Assembly: GCA_001797465.1 (NCBI GenBank)
Contig: MGPQ01000012.1
Location: forward strand, 1-64,000
DNA: 64,000 nt
Direction: 5' to 3'
Source of the DNA: Deltaproteobacteria bacterium GWB2_55_19
GTDB taxonomy: Bacteria; Desulfobacterota; GWC2-55-46
The notes under the pieces were generated by a model. It saw nothing but the letters and a program-made list of their open reading frames with translations. It searched no databases and was not told where the DNA came from. The translations under genes and the position numbers were made by a program. Of the stretch, positions 27,867-35,711 are shown one piece after another (the first letter of the stretch is position 1; every line of letters starts with the position of its first letter).

Positions 27867-27875
27867 GAGGTTTTG

Positions 27876-29087
27876 ATGAAGAAGCTCTTGGCCGCATTTT
27901 CACTCCTCCTGCTCTCCGCCTTTGTTTTTTCGGGGTGCGCGAAGCAACTGCCGAAGTGCGACGGCGTAGAGGACAACCCTATCCACCACTACCGTATGGG
28001 CATGGAGTTGCTTGACCAGAAGAAGACCGACGAGGCGGCCTCTAAATTCGAGCGCGCCTCCTATTGCGACGATAATTACGGGCCCGCGCACGCCGGGCTC
28101 GCCATAGTGGAGGCTATGAGGGCCACAGCCAAGAAGGACAACTCCTACAAGAAGGTGGACGCCGAGCGCGCCAGCGAGCACCTGAAGGCCGCGTACAAGA
28201 ACGCGTCAAGGCCCGAGGACGAGTTCGCCTATTACCTCGCCTCCATGCGCGTGTTCACGATACTCAAGGCCTCGAAGGGGTGGCTTGGGGAGGTCGAGGA
28301 CGACTACAAGGACGCCATGAAGCTCAAGGTGGATGAGAGGAAGCTCATATATTACGACGGCAGGGAGGCCGCGAGCTACTTCATGGGCATCGCCTTTCTC
28401 GAGGCCCGGGAGTTTCAGAGGGCGCGGGACATGTTCGGAAACGTCCTTGGCGAGAGGGCCGAGTCCAAATGGGCCGCGCGCGCGGACAAGGCATGGAAGA
28501 AGGTCGATAAGATCGTAAGGGCCCTTGCCGGGATCACATTAGGCGACGTCGGCAGGGAAATAGCGGTAAAGGATTCCGTCGGCAGGGCCGACATGGCCGC
28601 TCTCCTTATAGACGAGCTTAAGGTCGACAAGCTCTTCGCTGGCAGGATACCGCTTGCGATGGCGGATAAAAAGAAGGCCGAGTTCGTCCCGGCCGATATG
28701 CTCAATAACCCGTTCAGGGAAGAGGCCGAGACCCTAATGAAGTGGAACGTCAGGGGCCTTGAGCCGATATACGATGAAATGACGAAGGCCTACCTCTTCA
28801 AGCCCGATAACCAGGTGACGAGAAAGGAGCTCGCCTTCGTAATCGAGGACGTCCTCATGAAGATAACGGGTGACGAGGGGCTGGCAACTGCATACTTCGG
28901 CCACGAGAAGTCCCCGTTCCCGGACGTCGCCCCGTCGTCGGCATGGTACAACGCCATCATGAACGTGGCTACGAGGAACATCATGGAAGGTGAGCTCTCA
29001 GGGGAGTTCAGGCCGAACGACAGCGTCGACGGGGCCGAGGCGATCCTTGCCGTACGCGTCCTCAGACAGCACCTGAACATACATTAA
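27876..29087 (+). CDS. Lipoprotein with TPR-like repeats and SLH domain
   Basis: This 403-residue lipoprotein (lipobox FSGC) has an alpha-helical TPR-like middle (HYRMGMELLDQKKTDEAASK and later YFMGIAFLEAREFQRARDMF). A C-terminal S-layer-homology-like region follows (SPFPDVAPSSAWYNAIMNVA, then FRPNDSVDGAEAILAV). SLH domains bind cell-wall polymers, so this lipoprotein could tie the outer membrane to peptidoglycan. Start ATG 27876 follows TAGGAGG; a TTG one codon earlier is less likely. It ends the closely spaced operon begun at 24748 and is followed by a CCTCTAAAAAT palindrome. Confidence 0.75.
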   Translation: MKKLLAAFSLLLLSAFVFSGCAKQLPKCDGVEDNPIHHYRMGMELLDQKKTDEAASKFERASYCDDNYGPAHAGLAIVEAMRATAKKDNSYKKVDAERASEHLKAAYKNASRPEDEFAYYLASMRVFTILKASKGWLGEVEDDYKDAMKLKVDERKLIYYDGREAASYFMGIAFLEAREFQRARDMFGNVLGERAESKWAARADKAWKKVDKIVRALAGITLGDVGREIAVKDSVGRADMAALLIDELKVDKLFAGRIPLAMADKKKAEFVPADMLNNPFREEAETLMKWNVRGLEPIYDEMTKAYLFKPDNQVTRKELAFVIEDVLMKITGDEGLATAYFGHEKSPFPDVAPSSAWYNAIMNVATRNIMEGELSGEFRPNDSVDGAEAILAVRVLRQHLNIH

Positions 29088-29193: not shown

Positions 29194-30033
29194 ATGAGAA
29201 TACTCAAGGTCCTTATCGTACCCGTGGTCCTGTTCCTTTTTGCCGTCGTTGCCTGGGCCGAGGTCATGCCGCAGGTGACGACCGACCAGAGGCAGGCGTT
29301 TGTGACAGGCTCGATAGTAGTAAAAGGCGAGGCTGTCGCTGACAGGGCCCTCCCTGCCGGACAGAGGAGGCTCATGGCCCTTAGAGGCGCTAAGGTCGTG
29401 GCCTTCAGGGAAGTGGCGGAGATAATGGAAGGCGTGACCGTCACTGGCGAGACAATGGTTGTGAACATGGCCGCGGAATCCGATACCATACGCTCTACTG
29501 TGCAGGGGATAGTCAAGGGGGCGCAGATAGTCAAGGAGGGCTATGACCCCTTAAGCGAGACCGCCGTGGTATATCTCTCGGTGCCGCTGACCGGCCCCAA
29601 CGGCATCTTCGCCCAGCTCCTTCCCCAGGTGGTGCAGATGTTGCCGCCCCCGGCATTCCTCCCGTACCAGCCGCAACCAGACGTCATGCAGGCGAGGCAC
29701 GACGGCCTCATAATAGATTGCAGGTCGCAGGCCTTCAAGCCCGCGCTTATAAACAGGATAGTGACGAAGAACGGAGAGATGATCTACGACCCGGCGCGGG
29801 TCGCGCAGGAGATCCTTGTCGAGAGGGGCGCGGCAGAGTACACGAACGACGTGGGCAAGGCCAAGGCGCTGCTCTCCGAGCGGGGCTCTTCGAACCCGCT
29901 TGTCGTGAAGGCCGGGGGCGTTGTAAAGGGGACCGACGTCGAGGTGGCGCCCGAGGACGCGTCACAGATATTCTCATCGAACCAGTCGGCCAATTACCTC
30001 GAGGGCGCGAAGGTCGTATTCGTCCTCAGATAG
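29194..30033 (+). CDS. LPP20/FlgT-N-like exported protein
   Basis: This 279-residue protein has a signal peptide (VLIVPVVLFLFAVVAWA) and an LPP20-like domain related to FlgT-N (GQRRLMALRGAKVVAFREVA, VNMAAESDTIRSTVQGIV). A proline-rich linker (PPPAFLPYQPQP) and a C-terminal alpha/beta domain (DGLIIDCRSQAFKPALINRI) follow. A Lys-Ala-rich stretch with the repeat YTNDVGKAKALLSERG follows. There is a GGAGG start site. It is probably part of the same envelope module as the CsgG and DUF799 proteins, a second LPP20/FlgT-N protein within 4.5 kb. The molecular function is unknown. Confidence 0.68.
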   Translation: MRILKVLIVPVVLFLFAVVAWAEVMPQVTTDQRQAFVTGSIVVKGEAVADRALPAGQRRLMALRGAKVVAFREVAEIMEGVTVTGETMVVNMAAESDTIRSTVQGIVKGAQIVKEGYDPLSETAVVYLSVPLTGPNGIFAQLLPQVVQMLPPPAFLPYQPQPDVMQARHDGLIIDCRSQAFKPALINRIVTKNGEMIYDPARVAQEILVERGAAEYTNDVGKAKALLSERGSSNPLVVKAGGVVKGTDVEVAPEDASQIFSSNQSANYLEGAKVVFVLR

Positions 30034-30159: not shown

Positions 30160-30208
30160 CGCATCAACCTTGAGAGAGAAGCAAGATAAATCCATTCCGG
30201 AGGTGTAT

Positions 30209-30958
30209 GTGAAAAAGTTTCTCGCGGCTTCTTTGGTCTTTGCGGCAACACTGGCTACCGCCGCTACCGCTTCGGCGGTAGTGGACGTAGAGGGCAGGTA
30301 CTGGTTTACGAACATGGACGGCACGGTCCAGGTCTCGAACGGGGCGGTCGGCACCGAACTCGACATCGTCGACGACCTCGGCATGGAGGACAAAAACTTC
30401 TTCGAGGGCAGGGTAACGCTCGAGCTCGGGAGCCACAAGCTCAGGTACGGGTACATGCCGCTTAAGTGGAGCGGATCAACGACCTTAACCGAGTCCGTCA
30501 CCTTCGCCGGGCAGACCTACACCGCCAGCGCCGACGTGGATTCCGAATTGAACCTTGCGTACCACAGGCTCGGGTATGAGTACGACTTCATAGACCTGCT
30601 TAACAACAAGCTCGGGGTGATAGTGGAGCTTAAGTACTTCGACGGCGACGCCTCGCTCGCCTCCGCCGCACTCGGCCTTGACGAGTCGGAGACGTTCAAG
30701 CTCCCGATACCGACCGTCGGCGTCGCCGCGCAGGTAGGCCTGCCGATGATATTCTCCGTAGGCGGCGAGATCACCGGCATATCGCTCGGGTCCTCGGCGT
30801 ATCTCGTAGACGCCGAGGCGGCGGTGAATCTAAAGCCCGCGCCGTTTGTCATAATCTCCGGCGGGTACAGGATATTCAAGATGCACGCCGAGAGCGACAA
30901 CGACCTCGCCGAGGTCTCTCTATCCGGCCCGTTCTTGTCTTTAAGGGCGGACTTCTGA
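30209..30958 (+). CDS. Outer-membrane beta-barrel protein
   Basis: This protein of about 249 residues has a signal peptide (FLAASLVFAATLATAATASA) and eight or so amphipathic strands (VDVEGRYWFTNMDGTV, KLRYGYMPLKWSGS, LAYHRLGYEYDFID, YRIFKMHA) ending in LRADF, a terminal aromatic residue. This is the form of a small OmpA/OprF-like or OMP_b-brl barrel. I start at GTG 30209, preceded by GGAGG; the frame from 30170 has no site. It closes the envelope-protein run and is followed by a strong terminator. Substrate unknown. Confidence 0.7.
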   Translation: MKKFLAASLVFAATLATAATASAVVDVEGRYWFTNMDGTVQVSNGAVGTELDIVDDLGMEDKNFFEGRVTLELGSHKLRYGYMPLKWSGSTTLTESVTFAGQTYTASADVDSELNLAYHRLGYEYDFIDLLNNKLGVIVELKYFDGDASLASAALGLDESETFKLPIPTVGVAAQVGLPMIFSVGGEITGISLGSSAYLVDAEAAVNLKPAPFVIISGGYRIFKMHAESDNDLAEVSLSGPFLSLRADF

Positions 30959-30995
30959 TCCTTTGACCGCCAGTTTTCAGGCTGGGGTAAACGAG

Positions 30996-31036
30996 GGGGG
31001 ACTTCCGCGTCAGGGAAGTCCCCCTGGAATTTTTTT
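30996..31036 (+). terminator. Strong intrinsic terminator
   Basis: GGGGGACTTCC (30996-31006) and GGAAGTCCCCC (31014-31024) form an 11-bp stem with a 7-base loop, followed by a T run (31030-31036). It ends the envelope module ahead of the Mla operon. The 170 bases after it hold nothing I recognise. Confidence 0.85.
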
Positions 31037-31207: not shown

Positions 31208-31993
31208 ATGGAAACGCTTAAAACGTTAGGCAGGGAGCTCCTGGAGAGGGCGAAGGTCCTCTTTGAGTTCTGGAAGATAATCGTCTCAACGGCGGAATCC
31301 GTCCTTTTCCGGTTCAACCTCGGACGCAAGGCGACGCTTGACGTCCTCCTTAAGCAGGTCTATTTCACGGCCTTTGAGGCGCTCCCGATAATATCCTGGA
31401 TAGCCCTGATCATCGGGCTCATCATCGTCACCCAGGCCTTGAGCATCCTGCCGAGGCTCGGAGGCGAGGGGCTCATCGGCGAGATACTCGTCTGGGTACT
31501 CATAAGGGAGCTCGGGCCCGTGTTCGCCTCCGTCATAGTGATTGCGAGGAGCGGCACCGCCATGGCTTCCGAGCTCGGGCTGATGAAGAGCTCGAATGAG
31601 GTCTCGGCGCTCGAGGTGATGGGCATAGACCCCATGCACTATCTAATCGCGCCGAGGGTCCTCGGGACGATGATAAGCGTCTTTGTCCTCACCTTTTATT
31701 TTGAGGCGATATCGATACTCGGCGGCTACCTGCTCGCCGGTTTCGGAAAGAACATCGCCTTTTCCGTCTTTGTCGATTCCATCATGCAGGCCATGGGTTT
31801 TGTCGAGGTCTCGGTCTCGCTCCTTAAGAGTCTCCTCTTCGGGCTGATTATCGGGACCGTCAGCTCTTATTACGGCCTGAGGGTTAAGAGGTCGATAACA
31901 GAGATACCGCAGGCTACCACGAAGGCGGTCATGGGGAGCCTCAGGCTCGTTTTCGTAACCGACGCGGTCATAACCATCCTCTTTTTCATCTGA
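31208..31993 (+). CDS. mlaE: MlaE-type ABC transporter permease
   Basis: This 261-residue inner-membrane permease of the MCE/Mla phospholipid transport systems has five or so hydrophobic segments. The family signatures are VLIRELGPVFASVIVIARSG (with the RELGP motif), SALEVMGIDPMHYLIAPRVL and the C-terminal TTKAVMGSLRLVFVTD. MlaE forms the membrane part that passes phospholipid between inner membrane and the MCE protein. The mlaF-like and mlaD-like genes follow at once. Confidence 0.9.
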   Translation: METLKTLGRELLERAKVLFEFWKIIVSTAESVLFRFNLGRKATLDVLLKQVYFTAFEALPIISWIALIIGLIIVTQALSILPRLGGEGLIGEILVWVLIRELGPVFASVIVIARSGTAMASELGLMKSSNEVSALEVMGIDPMHYLIAPRVLGTMISVFVLTFYFEAISILGGYLLAGFGKNIAFSVFVDSIMQAMGFVEVSVSLLKSLLFGLIIGTVSSYYGLRVKRSITEIPQATTKAVMGSLRLVFVTDAVITILFFI

Positions 31994-31998
31994 ATATT

Positions 31999-32688
31999 AT
32001 GGGAACGCTTGTCGATATAAAGTCCGTATCCTGCTACAACGAGGCGGGCCGTCCGCTTTTTGAGGACGCGAGCCTTTCTTTCTCAGGCGGGGAAAGGGTG
32101 CTCATCATCGCGCCCGTGGCCTCTGGAAAAAGCGTCCTCATAAGGATGCTCGCCGGACTCTCCATGCCCGATAAGGGTACGGTCAGGGTCTTCGGCGAGG
32201 ATATCGCTTCGCTTACGAAGGACGGGCTCAATAAGCTCAGACAGAGGATGGGGTTCGTCTTTCACGACTCCGTCCTCATAAGCAATTTGAAGGTCATTGA
32301 AAACGTCGCGTTGCCGCTCATATATCATCGCGCCGCGCTGTCTTATGAGGATGCCATGCAGAAGGCGGCGAGGCTCCTGGAGGGGACCGGCTTCAGGGGC
32401 GACCTGTGGGGCCTGCCTGGGATGCTCCCGCTTTACGCGAAAAAGGAAATCGCGCTCGCGAGGGCGCTTGTCCTGAGGCCTGAGATAATCGTCTGCGAGA
32501 ACCTCTGGGACGGCCTTACGGACACGGAAAAGACGGGTCTCTCGTCGCTCCTACTCCAGTACCATAAGTCGAACCCCGGGGGCCTCCTTGTCTTTACGGC
32601 CCTGTCCGACGCGGACGCGCCGCACGTGCGGCCCCATCGCGTAATAAGAATAGAGGGTTGCATGATATCAGAGGAATTAAGGGCTTAG
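31999..32688 (+). CDS. mlaF: Degenerate MlaF-type ABC ATPase
   Basis: This 229-residue protein aligns with MlaF along its whole length, but most catalytic signatures are altered. Walker A reads APVASGKS in place of GPSGxGKT. The Q-loop Gln is His (FVFHDS). The LSGGx signature is replaced by LPLYAKKEIALARAL. Walker B reads IIVCENL instead of IIFDEP. The H-loop His is absent (VFTALSDADAP). Only SGKS and the glutamate-like position remain. It is in frame, coupled to its neighbours and free of stops, so it is a pseudoenzyme more than a decayed gene, or depends on a second ATPase. Confidence 0.78.
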   Translation: MGTLVDIKSVSCYNEAGRPLFEDASLSFSGGERVLIIAPVASGKSVLIRMLAGLSMPDKGTVRVFGEDIASLTKDGLNKLRQRMGFVFHDSVLISNLKVIENVALPLIYHRAALSYEDAMQKAARLLEGTGFRGDLWGLPGMLPLYAKKEIALARALVLRPEIIVCENLWDGLTDTEKTGLSSLLLQYHKSNPGGLLVFTALSDADAPHVRPHRVIRIEGCMISEELRA

Positions 32689-32689
32689 G

Positions 32690-33712
32690 ATGACGATAAG
32701 GCAGAAAGACCCGAGGTTTAAAAACCTCGAGATCAAAACCGGAATAATGGTCGTGATAGCCATTTTGGGTGTCGCGCTCGTCATGGCCTTCATAGGCCTT
32801 GAGAAGGACCTTTTCTCAGCGAAGTACAGGGTGTATTTCATATCCGAAAGCGGGTCCGGGTTTGTCGAAGGGATGCCCGTAAAGCTCTCAGGCTTCAGGA
32901 TCGGAAGGGTTAAAAAGATAGAGCTCACCGAGGACGCGAGGGTCAGGATAGTCGCTGAGCTGAACAGGAAGTACGAGCGCTGGATAAGGGACGATTCAGT
33001 CGCGCGCCTTTCCAAGGAAGGTCTGATAGGAGACCCGTACGTCGAGGTAACGGCAGGCAACGCGGAGCGGCGCATGCTCGTCAACAACGACGCGATCCAG
33101 TACGTAAAAGAGGGCGGGATGGAGGAGCTTGTAGAGAAGGCGAAGCCTGTGCTGAACGAGATAAAGGACATCATACATTACGTCAACGACCCCGATGGCG
33201 ACATAAAGGTGATGCTCTCGAACCTGAAGGAACTCTCGGTAGAGGTGAGGGAGACGAGGCGGGCGGTTGACGCGACACTAAAGGACGCCGGAAAGTCTAT
33301 AAGGGACGCCGACAGGCTCGTACTCGACTTGAACGACAGGACGAAGTCGCTTATTGATAACGCCGACAGGACCATAACGCGTCTCGACCCGGTCATAACG
33401 AGGATAGAAGACGCGGCCGGCAAGGCCGGGGCCGCAATCGACAGGTTCCCTGAGACGATGGAAAAGGTAGAGCGCATAGCCGACAATGTGAGGCTCTTGA
33501 CCGACGCGCTCGCAAAAGAGACCCCGAGGATACGGGAGATGCTCGTCAACGCGGATGAGACGCTCTGGGAGAGCAAGGAGATGGTAAAGGGCGTAAAAGA
33601 GAGCTGGCCCGTGAGGCTTATGATCCCTCCGGCGAAGGGGCCGGAGCTCGTCCCTTTAGACGGCTACCTGCTTAACAACGGCAAGTCCGCGCCGATGAAA
33701 AAGGCCGAATGA
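32690..33712 (+). CDS. mlaD: MlaD-type MCE-domain protein
   Basis: This 340-residue protein is anchored by one N-terminal helix (TGIMVVIAILGVALVMAFIG). It then has an MCE domain (AKYRVYFISESGSGFVEGMP, VKLSGFRIGRVKKIEL, DPYVEVTAG). A long helical tail follows with repeated amphipathic heptads (IRDADRLVLDLNDRTKSLID...), able to form the needle or barrel that carries lipid across the periplasm. It is longer than E. coli MlaD (about 180 residues), closer to YebT/PqiB-like tails. It starts two bases after the ATPase stop and ends overlapping the TPR lipoprotein. Confidence 0.87.
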   Translation: MTIRQKDPRFKNLEIKTGIMVVIAILGVALVMAFIGLEKDLFSAKYRVYFISESGSGFVEGMPVKLSGFRIGRVKKIELTEDARVRIVAELNRKYERWIRDDSVARLSKEGLIGDPYVEVTAGNAERRMLVNNDAIQYVKEGGMEELVEKAKPVLNEIKDIIHYVNDPDGDIKVMLSNLKELSVEVRETRRAVDATLKDAGKSIRDADRLVLDLNDRTKSLIDNADRTITRLDPVITRIEDAAGKAGAAIDRFPETMEKVERIADNVRLLTDALAKETPRIREMLVNADETLWESKEMVKGVKESWPVRLMIPPAKGPELVPLDGYLLNNGKSAPMKKAE

Positions 33713-34647
33713 TGAAGTTTAAGAAGTTTATGGTGTTGATGTCGGCCGCAGGCCTCGTCTACGGGTGCGCCCCGCGCGTGGAGGACGCACGCCTGGCGTC
33801 AAAGTCCGCTGAGGCGAGGATGAAAGGGGTGGCCTGGTACGCGGATGGGGACTACCCCCGCGCGCTCGCGCGGTTCAGCGAGGCCTTGAGCATGGACAGG
33901 GCCTCTGACGACAGAAAATCCGAGGCCCTTGACCTCGTGGACATAGGCAGGGTATATATATCGGTCAACGACGCGGTGTCAGCCAGGCGCTTTCTCGGCG
34001 AGACTGTGAGGCTCTCGACGACCGAAGGCTTCCACGAGGTCCTCTCAGAGGCCTATGCGACGCTCGCCAAGGTTGAGCTCATGGAGAACGATAGGCCCTC
34101 TGCCATGAAATACATCGATGAATCGATTAAGACGGACGCCTCGCTCTCAAGGAAAGAGTCCGGCGGAAAGCTCAACCTTAAGGCATCCATAGTTTTATCC
34201 GATGACAGGGCGGGTGAGGCCGTCGCGCTCTTTGAGAGGGCGCTCTCTATCAATGAGTCCGCCGGCGACGATGGCGAGGCCGCCAACTCTTTACGGGGCC
34301 TCGGGGACGCCGCGTTCGCTTCAGGCGACCACGCTGGCGCGTTCAGACACTACGAGGCCGCTTACTCGAAGGACAAAAGGCTCGGCCTCTCGACCAGGAT
34401 AGCGCGAGACCTGTACGGTATGGCTGAGGCCCAACTTGTAATGGGCAGGAAGGACGAAGCGCTTTATCTCCTTGAGCGCTCCTATTACGTCAGCCTGAGC
34501 GGAAAGGACGCGGCCTTCGCGGCGAAGAGCCTCGGGGGGATGATATCCATCTTGGAAGGCTCCGGCGACATTGAAAAGGCCCGCGGTCTCAAGGAAATAA
34601 AAGACGGGCTTGAGTCTAAAGAAAATACGGGCGAAACTCTCAGATGA
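33709..34647 (+). CDS. TPR lipoprotein of the Mla operon
   Basis: This 312-residue protein has a lipobox (MSAAGLVYGC) and about six TPR-like helix pairs (GVAWYADGDYPRALARFSEA, AYATLAKVELMENDRPSAMK, SLRGLGDAAFASGDHAGAFR, LYLLERSYYVSL). It takes the place of the soluble MlaC or outer-membrane MlaA, neither of which is seen here. It could form a scaffold or receive lipid at the outer membrane, but that is inference. Overlaps by 4 bases on both sides (ATGA) show strong coupling to mlaD and to the kinase. Confidence 0.72.
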   Translation: MMKFKKFMVLMSAAGLVYGCAPRVEDARLASKSAEARMKGVAWYADGDYPRALARFSEALSMDRASDDRKSEALDLVDIGRVYISVNDAVSARRFLGETVRLSTTEGFHEVLSEAYATLAKVELMENDRPSAMKYIDESIKTDASLSRKESGGKLNLKASIVLSDDRAGEAVALFERALSINESAGDDGEAANSLRGLGDAAFASGDHAGAFRHYEAAYSKDKRLGLSTRIARDLYGMAEAQLVMGRKDEALYLLERSYYVSLSGKDAAFAAKSLGGMISILEGSGDIEKARGLKEIKDGLESKENTGETLR

Positions 34648-35711
34648 AACCAAGGGTACTTGCGGTAGACGACGACGAAAGAAACCTCTCGCTCCTCTCA
34701 GCCAAGCTCGAAAGGGAGGGCTACGAGGTCACGAGCGCGAGAAACGGGATAGAGGCGCTCGCGAAGGTCAGGCAGAACCCGCCGGACCTGATCCTCATGG
34801 ACGTCATGATGCCGCAGATGGACGGGTATGAGGCCTTAAGACAGCTCAAGTCCCGCGAGGATACGCGCTACATCCCGGTAATAATGCTCACGGGGAGGAC
34901 CGAGATAGAGGACAAGGTCCTCGGCTTCGAGGTCGGCGCCGAGGACTACATAAACAAGCCTTACAGCCTCCAGGAGGTGGCGGCGAGGGTAAAGTCGCTT
35001 CTCCGCATGAGGGCGCTTCAAACGCGCCTGCGCGACACCGAGAAGATGGCGGCGCTCGGAGGCATGGTCGACGGAATAGCCCACGAGATCAGGAACCCGC
35101 TTACCGCCATAGGCGGCATGGCAAGGCGGCTCTTTGAGGGCGAGACCGACCCCCAGCACAAGGAGTACGCCCAGTGGATCATAAAGTCAGTCGAGCGCCT
35201 TGAAAGGATGCTCCAGAGGATAGACGAGTACAAGCGCATACTCTCATCCACGCTCTCCCCCGGGGACGTTAACAAGGTCATAAACGACGCGGTAAAGGAA
35301 ATAGAGGAGTTCATCGAGGTCAAGGGCAAGGACATCAAGGTCTTGAAGCTCCTCATGCCTGATCCGCCGGTTGTGAAACTCGACTACGGCAATTTCAAGA
35401 GCGCCCTTTACAACATACTCCAGAACTCGGTGGAGGCGATAGACAATAAGGGAGAAATAAGGGTGGAGACCCTGCCGTCCCCGGACTCGGTCCTCGTTAT
35501 CAGGATAATCGACACCGGAGGAGGCATAAGCCCGGACGATATCAGGAAGATATTCAACCCGTTCCAGTCCTCGAAGTTCGAGGGCGCGGGGCTCGGCCTC
35601 ACCATCACCTACAGGATAGTAATCGACCACGGCGGCGACATAGAGGTCGAAAGCAAGAAGGGTGAGGGGACGACCGTCACGATAAAACTCCACCCGGTCC
35701 CGGCGAGATAG
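34644..35711 (+). CDS. REC-histidine kinase hybrid
   Basis: This 355-residue cytoplasmic signalling protein has an N-terminal receiver (VLAVDDDERN, phospho-acceptor DLILMDVMMP near Asp52, switch Lys in INKPYS). It then has a HisKA dimer domain (GIAHEIRNPLTAIGG) and HATPase_c (NILQNSVEAID, DTGGGISPDDI, GAGLGLTI). There is no transmembrane segment, so input must come through the receiver, and output would be phosphotransfer to an unknown response regulator. It is translationally coupled to the lipid-transport operon by ATGA, suggesting envelope-linked signalling. Confidence 0.87.
   Translation: MKPRVLAVDDDERNLSLLSAKLEREGYEVTSARNGIEALAKVRQNPPDLILMDVMMPQMDGYEALRQLKSREDTRYIPVIMLTGRTEIEDKVLGFEVGAEDYINKPYSLQEVAARVKSLLRMRALQTRLRDTEKMAALGGMVDGIAHEIRNPLTAIGGMARRLFEGETDPQHKEYAQWIIKSVERLERMLQRIDEYKRILSSTLSPGDVNKVINDAVKEIEEFIEVKGKDIKVLKLLMPDPPVVKLDYGNFKSALYNILQNSVEAIDNKGEIRVETLPSPDSVLVIRIIDTGGGISPDDIRKIFNPFQSSKFEGAGLGLTITYRIVIDHGGDIEVESKKGEGTTVTIKLHPVPAR

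Follow-up and report, generated by a model that had tools for sequence, protein, structure and literature searches.

The locus and its neighbouring genes

The window (the whole stretch of DNA analysed, 64,000 nucleotides from Deltaproteobacteria bacterium GWB2_55_19) harbours at positions 31999-32688 an intact open reading frame for an MlaF-like nucleotide-binding domain (NBD) protein of 229 amino acids. This candidate pseudo-ATPase is designated psNBD, and its gene lies on the forward strand, as do the mlaE2, MCE, TPR, response regulator-kinase and beta-barrel genes and the hairpin described below; the opposite strand of 31999-32688 is interrupted by stop codons in the same register. The gene starts 5 bp past the end of a gene encoding an MlaE-family permease of 261 amino acids, MlaE2 (31208-31993; PF02405, 213.5 bits with a cut-off of 22.5). 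It is followed after 1 bp by a gene encoding an MCE protein of 340 amino acids with a long stretch C-terminal to the MCE domain (32690-33712; PF02470, 55.8 bits with a cut-off of 25.1). This spacing bears out the sequence-only reading, in which the gene was described as intact and tightly coupled to mlaE and the MCE (mlaD) gene. Overlaps of 4 bp connect the MCE gene to a gene encoding a TPR-repeat protein of 312 amino acids (33709-34647), with an N-terminus (LVYGC) that looks lipoprotein-like by eye, and the latter to a gene encoding a fusion of response regulator and histidine kinase (34644-35711), through which the lipid system may be tied to envelope sensing. Upstream of mlaE2 lies an outer-membrane beta-barrel gene (30170-30958), TIGR04219-like at 75 bits, under the cut-off of 105 of that model. 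The operon probably starts at mlaE2, because a terminator-like hairpin of 12 pairs with a T run (30995-31025) separates it from the barrel gene. Further upstream an S-layer homology domain protein (27873-29087) and a protein of 279 amino acids without Pfam or NCBIfam match (29194-30033) are encoded. Neither MlaB nor MlaC was recognized among the genes of the cluster with the list of open reading frames and Pfam.

Profile searches placed psNBD among the ABC proteins (PF00005, ABC_tran, 59 bits). Its score with NF008809, the curated equivalog model of MlaF, was 78.9 bits with a cut-off of 441, and its top NCBIfam match was FtsE with 98 bits, the cut-off of 265 not being reached. MlaE2 scored 174.6 bits with the TIGR00056 subfamily model (cut-off 212.2, not reached), and its profile matches the solved MlaE chains 7ch8, 6xbd and 6z5u. 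The structure model of the MCE protein (pLDDT 35) was too poor for use. The AlphaFold model of psNBD had a pLDDT of 90.3, with three of the five models at only ~60. Its best PDB match was MlaF of MlaFEDB (6xbd chain I; Z 29.6, 1.6 Å over 225 residues) in a second look with VIA-align at the matches of Foldseek, in which LolD, YbbA and others tied within 1 Z. As modelled, psNBD is a protein with the MlaF/ABC NBD fold.

Loss of catalytic motifs in psNBD

Each ATP site of an ABC protein combines the Walker A, Walker B, Gln and His contributed by one chain with the signature of its partner. The motif columns of psNBD were read by alignment to the genome's own intact MlaF (248 amino acids, contig 10). 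A remnant Walker A, APVASGKS at residues 38-45 (32110-32133), stands in place of GRSGEGKS; the first Gly is replaced by Ala38, while Lys44 and Ser45 are retained. In the Q-loop the Gln is changed to His89 (FQ to FH; 32263-32265), and at the signature position, residues 143-147, LSGGM is changed to LPLYA (32425-32439). The Walker B Asp is replaced by Glu167 and the catalytic Glu by Asn168 (LFDEP to VCENL; 32497-32502). The D-loop has GLTD for GLDP, its Asp being gone, and the H-loop region, residues 200-204 TALSD (32596-32610), lacks a His (ITHD to FTALSD). The two other histidines nearby, H209 and H213, were considered as a displaced H-loop His and rejected, since these columns are not conserved. 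The alignment thus confirmed all five alterations first seen in the letters of the window alone, i.e. of the first Gly of Walker A, the Q-loop Gln, the LSGGx signature, the Walker B Asp and the H-loop His; the losses of the catalytic Glu and of the D-loop Asp come in addition to these.

The other ABC proteins of the genome served as a control. A canonical Walker A is present in all 17 other ABC matches (L002-L018, of which L015 and L017 are one gene) and a simple Walker B pattern in 16 of these 17 (L004 was missed); both are absent in psNBD, whose losses are therefore not a matter of chance. This control is loose for the signature, the pattern of which was missed in L011, and for the H-loop, where the simple His pattern was missed in several matches. 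Loss of the first signature Gly was not relied on by itself, as LSYGQ occurs in one ABC protein of this genome (L016) that is normal in other respects. In E. coli MlaF, K47, T48 and S146 are reported to take part in ATP coordination, with E170 of Walker B as the catalytic base (PMC7784689). Judged by the residues left in psNBD, Lys44 and Ser45, the protein may still bind ATP, which could then serve as a switch.

Orthologues in the family and the class

An orthologue of psNBD was found in 16 of the 30 genomes of the family to which the organism belongs (46-100 % identity), and a matching MlaE2 in the same 16. The cassette is dispensable in some settings, because it is absent from the other 14 genomes of its own family. 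In the class, psNBD orthologues occur in 29 of the 63 genomes; they score at least 217 bits with NBD profile A1, cleanly separated from the next NBDs, which reach at most 141 bits. A profile search of contigs yielded six loci, three of them orthologues (Deltaproteobacteria groundwater MAGs) and three distant ABC proteins.

None of the 29 class orthologues has the catalytic Glu, the H-loop His or either of the two signature glycines. The Walker A Lys is retained in 25 of the 28 rows that include this region and a Ser or Thr next to it in 17 of 28, the position of Ser45 being Gly or Ala in eight rows. In three genomes (G040, G041 and G042) the whole Walker A is gone, Lys included. The same three genomes have three MlaE genes each. 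Glu167 at the Walker B position is constant across the own family, and it could conceivably act as a base, so that a residual, non-canonical ATPase activity with other residues standing in for the catalytic Glu and His might be imagined. However, the other families of the class have Asp-Arg or Asp-Lys at the Walker B and catalytic Glu positions, three further motifs are lost, and in E. coli MlaF the single substitution E170Q is reported to cut activity by ~80 % (PMC7784689). Such residual hydrolysis is considered very unlikely.

The gene order around psNBD is well kept in the class. The MCE and TPR genes adjoin the NBD gene in all 29 loci, and MlaE2 does so in 28, sitting on another contig in G016. 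The response regulator-kinase gene adjoins the cassette in 25 of the 29 loci and the beta-barrel gene is kept upstream in 24. Two loci have mlaE2 and the NBD gene set apart, by ~3.6 kb in G059 and by 0.9 kb in G055. In G059 (L132, 4686-7895) a caspase-like gene and a REP-type transposase-like gene, both recognized by eye, split the pair, and the NBD is intact.

The most conserved stretch of psNBD covers residues 93-110, LISNLKVIENVALPLIYH (32275-32328), and 12 of the 30 most conserved columns fall within residues 90-110, i.e. LISNLKVIENVALPLIYH and its neighbours; the top columns are mostly non-catalytic. In canonical NBDs the region past the Q-loop receives the coupling helix of the permease, and from its place in these proteins the stretch is expected to form the permease-binding groove. 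The part past the H-loop is short, with 20-30 residues in the class proteins versus 51 in the intact MlaF; in other bacteria the C-terminal extension of MlaF is reported to reach the adjacent subunit (PMC10665443).

Simple Nei-Gojobori counts, in which dS is partly saturated, gave dN/dS values within the genus of 0.13-0.18 for the NBD and of 0.02-0.08 for MlaE2. For the NBDs of the trio without Walker A (G040-G042) the value was 0.06-0.08, from the two of three pairs that were computable. Measured against the copies in the window, the MlaE2 proteins of the class are 57-100 % identical, more than the NBDs (36-93 %), and the reading frames of all 29 orthologues are free of stops. As judged from these codon comparisons, psNBD is under purifying selection. 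The sequence-only reading had suggested an alignment of orthologues and had named as its refutation intact motifs in these, with an isolated decay or a sequencing error in the window copy. That case does not hold, since all 29 orthologues share the losses; together with the dN/dS values they rule out isolated decay and sequencing error alike.

A slower, relaxed decay, in which the cassette is heading for loss and the NBD goes first, would agree with the absence of the cassette from four genera of the family (g2, g6, g11 and g13) and with the orphan MlaE2 genes of three genomes of family f37, which have no NBD or MCE gene nearby (see below). It does not agree with dN/dS values of 0.13-0.18, with 29 of 29 frames free of stops, with the conservation of residues 93-110 or with an operon kept across many families. 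Relaxed decay is strongly disfavoured by the purifying selection seen in the coding sequences, and we regard it as extremely improbable.

Cassettes outside the class

The MlaE2 profile, searched in 395 genomes of the phylum at E 1e-55, matched 38 genomes, 29 of these outside the class. Together with four more loci from the NBD profile, 33 loci outside the class were examined, and 28 of them harbour an NBD of the psNBD kind. The motif table holds 27 outside-class NBDs; that of L227, just under the score cut, was examined separately. Of the remaining five loci, two are short contigs with neither an NBD nor an MCE match (L228 and L232) and three have an orphan gene for an MlaE2-like permease in family f37 (L207, L210 and L211, in genomes G210, G157 and G257), the orphan status of L211 being established by profile only. 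In L207 and L210 the neighbours of the orphan gene, as recognized by eye, are a metallo-beta-lactamase-fold gene on one side and a fructose-bisphosphatase-like gene on the other. The orphan permeases may represent a final stage of motor loss or have another use.

A gradation is seen among the NBDs outside the class. The early forms, found in families f43 and f51 and in part of f31, have lost the H-loop His; Walker A, the Q-loop and a Ser-x-Gly signature are present in them, and in most the catalytic Glu is too. Intermediate forms occur in f24, and the NBDs of f29, f37, f39, f64 and f72 have no Walker A at all. Walker A, the Ser-x-Gly signature and the Walker B Asp are kept together in 12 of the 27 tabulated outside-class cassettes, and nine have the catalytic Glu as well. 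The wider group is not uniformly dead, and from their residues these 12 cassettes may still bind or slowly hydrolyse ATP. Over the 56 rows tabulated, the canonical residue is kept for the Walker A Lys in 43 of 55, the Gln in 21 of 56, the Walker B Asp in 34, the second signature Gly in 12, the catalytic Glu in 10, the His in one and the first signature Gly in none. All these residues are present in eight intact MlaF controls. The one His in the H-loop column (FLSPHQS, G428) was taken as chance, the protein having no Walker A, signature or catalytic Glu.

In a permease tree, the MlaE2 proteins form one side of a branch opposite 19 MlaE1 proteins with a support of 100. Loss of the whole Walker A requires three changes on this tree, i.e. 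at least three losses, in a count that assigned rows by family and left out those for which no NBD was seen. In the NBD tree, computed with the motifs masked and two Lol sequences as root, the psNBDs do not all fall in one clade, and a single clade is not rejected (p 0.248).

The uneven fate of Walker A bears on a further explanation, in which psNBD binds ATP through the Walker A Lys and Ser without hydrolysis and, as a gated switch, opens or closes the permease and senses the energy state of the cell. The retention of Lys in 25 and of Ser/Thr in 17 of the 28 class rows is in agreement with this, as is the intact fold around them. However, strong constraint (dN/dS 0.06-0.08) acts on the proteins of G040-G042, from which Walker A is wholly gone; it is likewise gone in f29, f37, f39, f64 and f72, the Ser45 position is Gly or Ala in eight class rows, and the loss of the signature removes the usual ATP sandwich. 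A switch of this kind is judged unlikely.

A second, intact Mla cluster in the same genome

A separate, intact MlaE-MlaF-MlaD cluster is located on contig 10 of the genome (L142, 4950-8163, reverse strand). Its MlaD has 517 amino acids, and by eye the C-terminus of this protein resembles the barrel-bearing Veillonella type. The search for a second MlaF gene that the sequence-only reading had called for therefore ended with an intact one, encoded in an MlaE-MlaF-MlaD cluster of its own. Most genomes with a psNBD cassette have a second MlaE. In one nearly complete genome (G010, 97 % complete) the psNBD cassette is present and no second MlaE was found, nor a second NBD match at E 1e-30. In five less complete genomes (79-88 %) no second MlaE was found either, which their incompleteness may explain.

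The intact MlaF and the second MlaE of most cassette-bearing genomes would allow a mixed dimer, in which the MlaF of the other cluster, or another NBD, pairs with psNBD and supplies ATP hydrolysis. In known ABC pairs with one working site, that site is completed by a signature retained in the degenerate chain. In psNBD, however, the catalytic Glu, the His and the signature are lost from the same chain, which leaves neither composite site whole. Since each psNBD of the class has lost both the catalytic residues and the signature, no complete ATP site is expected in a homodimer or in a pair with intact MlaF. Furthermore, the intact MlaF has a full cluster of its own, and its tail extends 51 residues past the H-loop versus 20-30. 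The genome of G010 also makes a borrowed ATPase seem unnecessary, because the cassette occurs there without a second MlaE or MlaF being found. The mixed dimer appears improbable, more so than the switch. The sequence-only reading had offered two possibilities, ATP-independent lipid movement or the use of another ATPase. The present comparison favours the first over the second, as the intact MlaF has its own cluster and the mixed dimer would be incomplete.

Comparison with known systems

MlaFEDB of E. coli, Pseudomonas and Acinetobacter has the same MlaE-family permease, an NBD of the MlaF fold and an MCE protein. Its MlaF has intact Walker A, Walker B and LSGG motifs, with Glu170 driving the ATPase (PMC7784689), whereas psNBD lacks the Glu, the signature and the His. 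The C-terminal tail found in MlaF of MlaFEDB is absent as well. The minimal MlaEFD system of Veillonella parvula, a trans-envelope bridge, shares the three-gene core, has a long MCE protein to which that of 340 amino acids in the window may correspond, and is described as being without MlaA and MlaC (PMC10665443). The same study reports that its MlaF closely resembles that of model diderms, while the NBD of the window is without catalytic motifs and a TPR lipoprotein gene is added. The other cluster of the genome, with its MlaD of 517 amino acids, is a closer match to V. parvula MlaEFD than the window cassette is. The Mpc system of Brucella abortus shares MlaE and MlaF homologues, a long needle-like MCE protein and an outer-membrane lipoprotein, all in one operon (PMC12436622). 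In Mpc the ABC transporter is described as well conserved and the lipoprotein as PqiC-like (PMC12436622); the lipoprotein of the window cassette is a TPR protein.

ABC exporters with one degenerate site, such as TAP and CFTR, likewise have an NBD without the catalytic Glu and His. ABC pairs of this type are well known, and TAP and CFTR keep one whole composite site by means of an intact partner and a signature. This is where psNBD differs from them, with the catalytic residues and the signature lost from the same chain. The membrane parts PqiA and LetA are not known to be related to MlaE. The PqiABC and LetAB systems share an MCE bridge and are described as working without an ATPase domain (PMC12436622); they have no NBD at all, unlike the window cassette.

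Proposed function and implications

On balance, the gene at 31999-32688 probably encodes a conserved pseudo-ATPase that acts as the non-hydrolysing scaffold of a second MlaE-MCE lipid-transfer complex. Two psNBDs would sit under an MlaE2 dimer and hold MlaE2 in one state, comparable to nucleotide-free MlaFEDB, in which the MlaE cavity is open toward the MCE ring (PMC10212509). With psNBD as a cytoplasmic scaffold, no ATP would be hydrolysed as lipids cross MlaE2 and the MCE protein, and the long MCE protein and the TPR lipoprotein would reach toward the outer membrane. Phospholipids would move down their gradient, most simply outward; without a motor, the system would be expected to leak in that direction or to equilibrate. 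Outward movement is proposed because transfer from MlaD to MlaC is reviewed as being spontaneous without ATP and stopped by ATP hydrolysis (PMC10212509). The direction of transport is inferred by analogy with other bacteria, which use the shuttle MlaC, not known to serve here. For the ordinary Mla system, biochemical work is reviewed as strongly supporting retrograde transport (PMC10212509). The ATP-driven work could fall to the intact MlaE-MlaF-MlaD cluster on contig 10.

A more far-reaching version is put forward tentatively, and we hold it to be somewhat doubtful. The NBD dimer might be a clamp that locks the permease open. The cassette would then be a permanently ATP-free conduit for phospholipids from the inner to the outer membrane, present in many bacteria beside an ATP-driven retrograde Mla system of the same cell, its nucleotide site having been erased independently in several lineages.

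A conserved NBD that is dead in both halves of its sites within an MlaE-MCE system appears to be new. No account of an MlaF without catalytic motifs was found in the open-licence PMC literature, which is weak evidence of absence. In a phylogenomic study of Mla systems, the annotation of MlaF is described as uncertain and MlaF was identified by synteny (PMC10665443). Annotation of this kind counts dead ATPases as live. The phospholipid route to the outer membrane and the direction of Mla-type systems are under dispute, with the role of ATP at the centre (PMC10212509). The window cassette would be a natural MlaE-MCE machine without ATP, with catalytic loss at the level of a class and under selection, and its direction could be measured in parallel with that of the intact paralogue which the genome also encodes. 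If lipids do move through it, ATP hydrolysis would be dispensable for MlaE-MCE transport.
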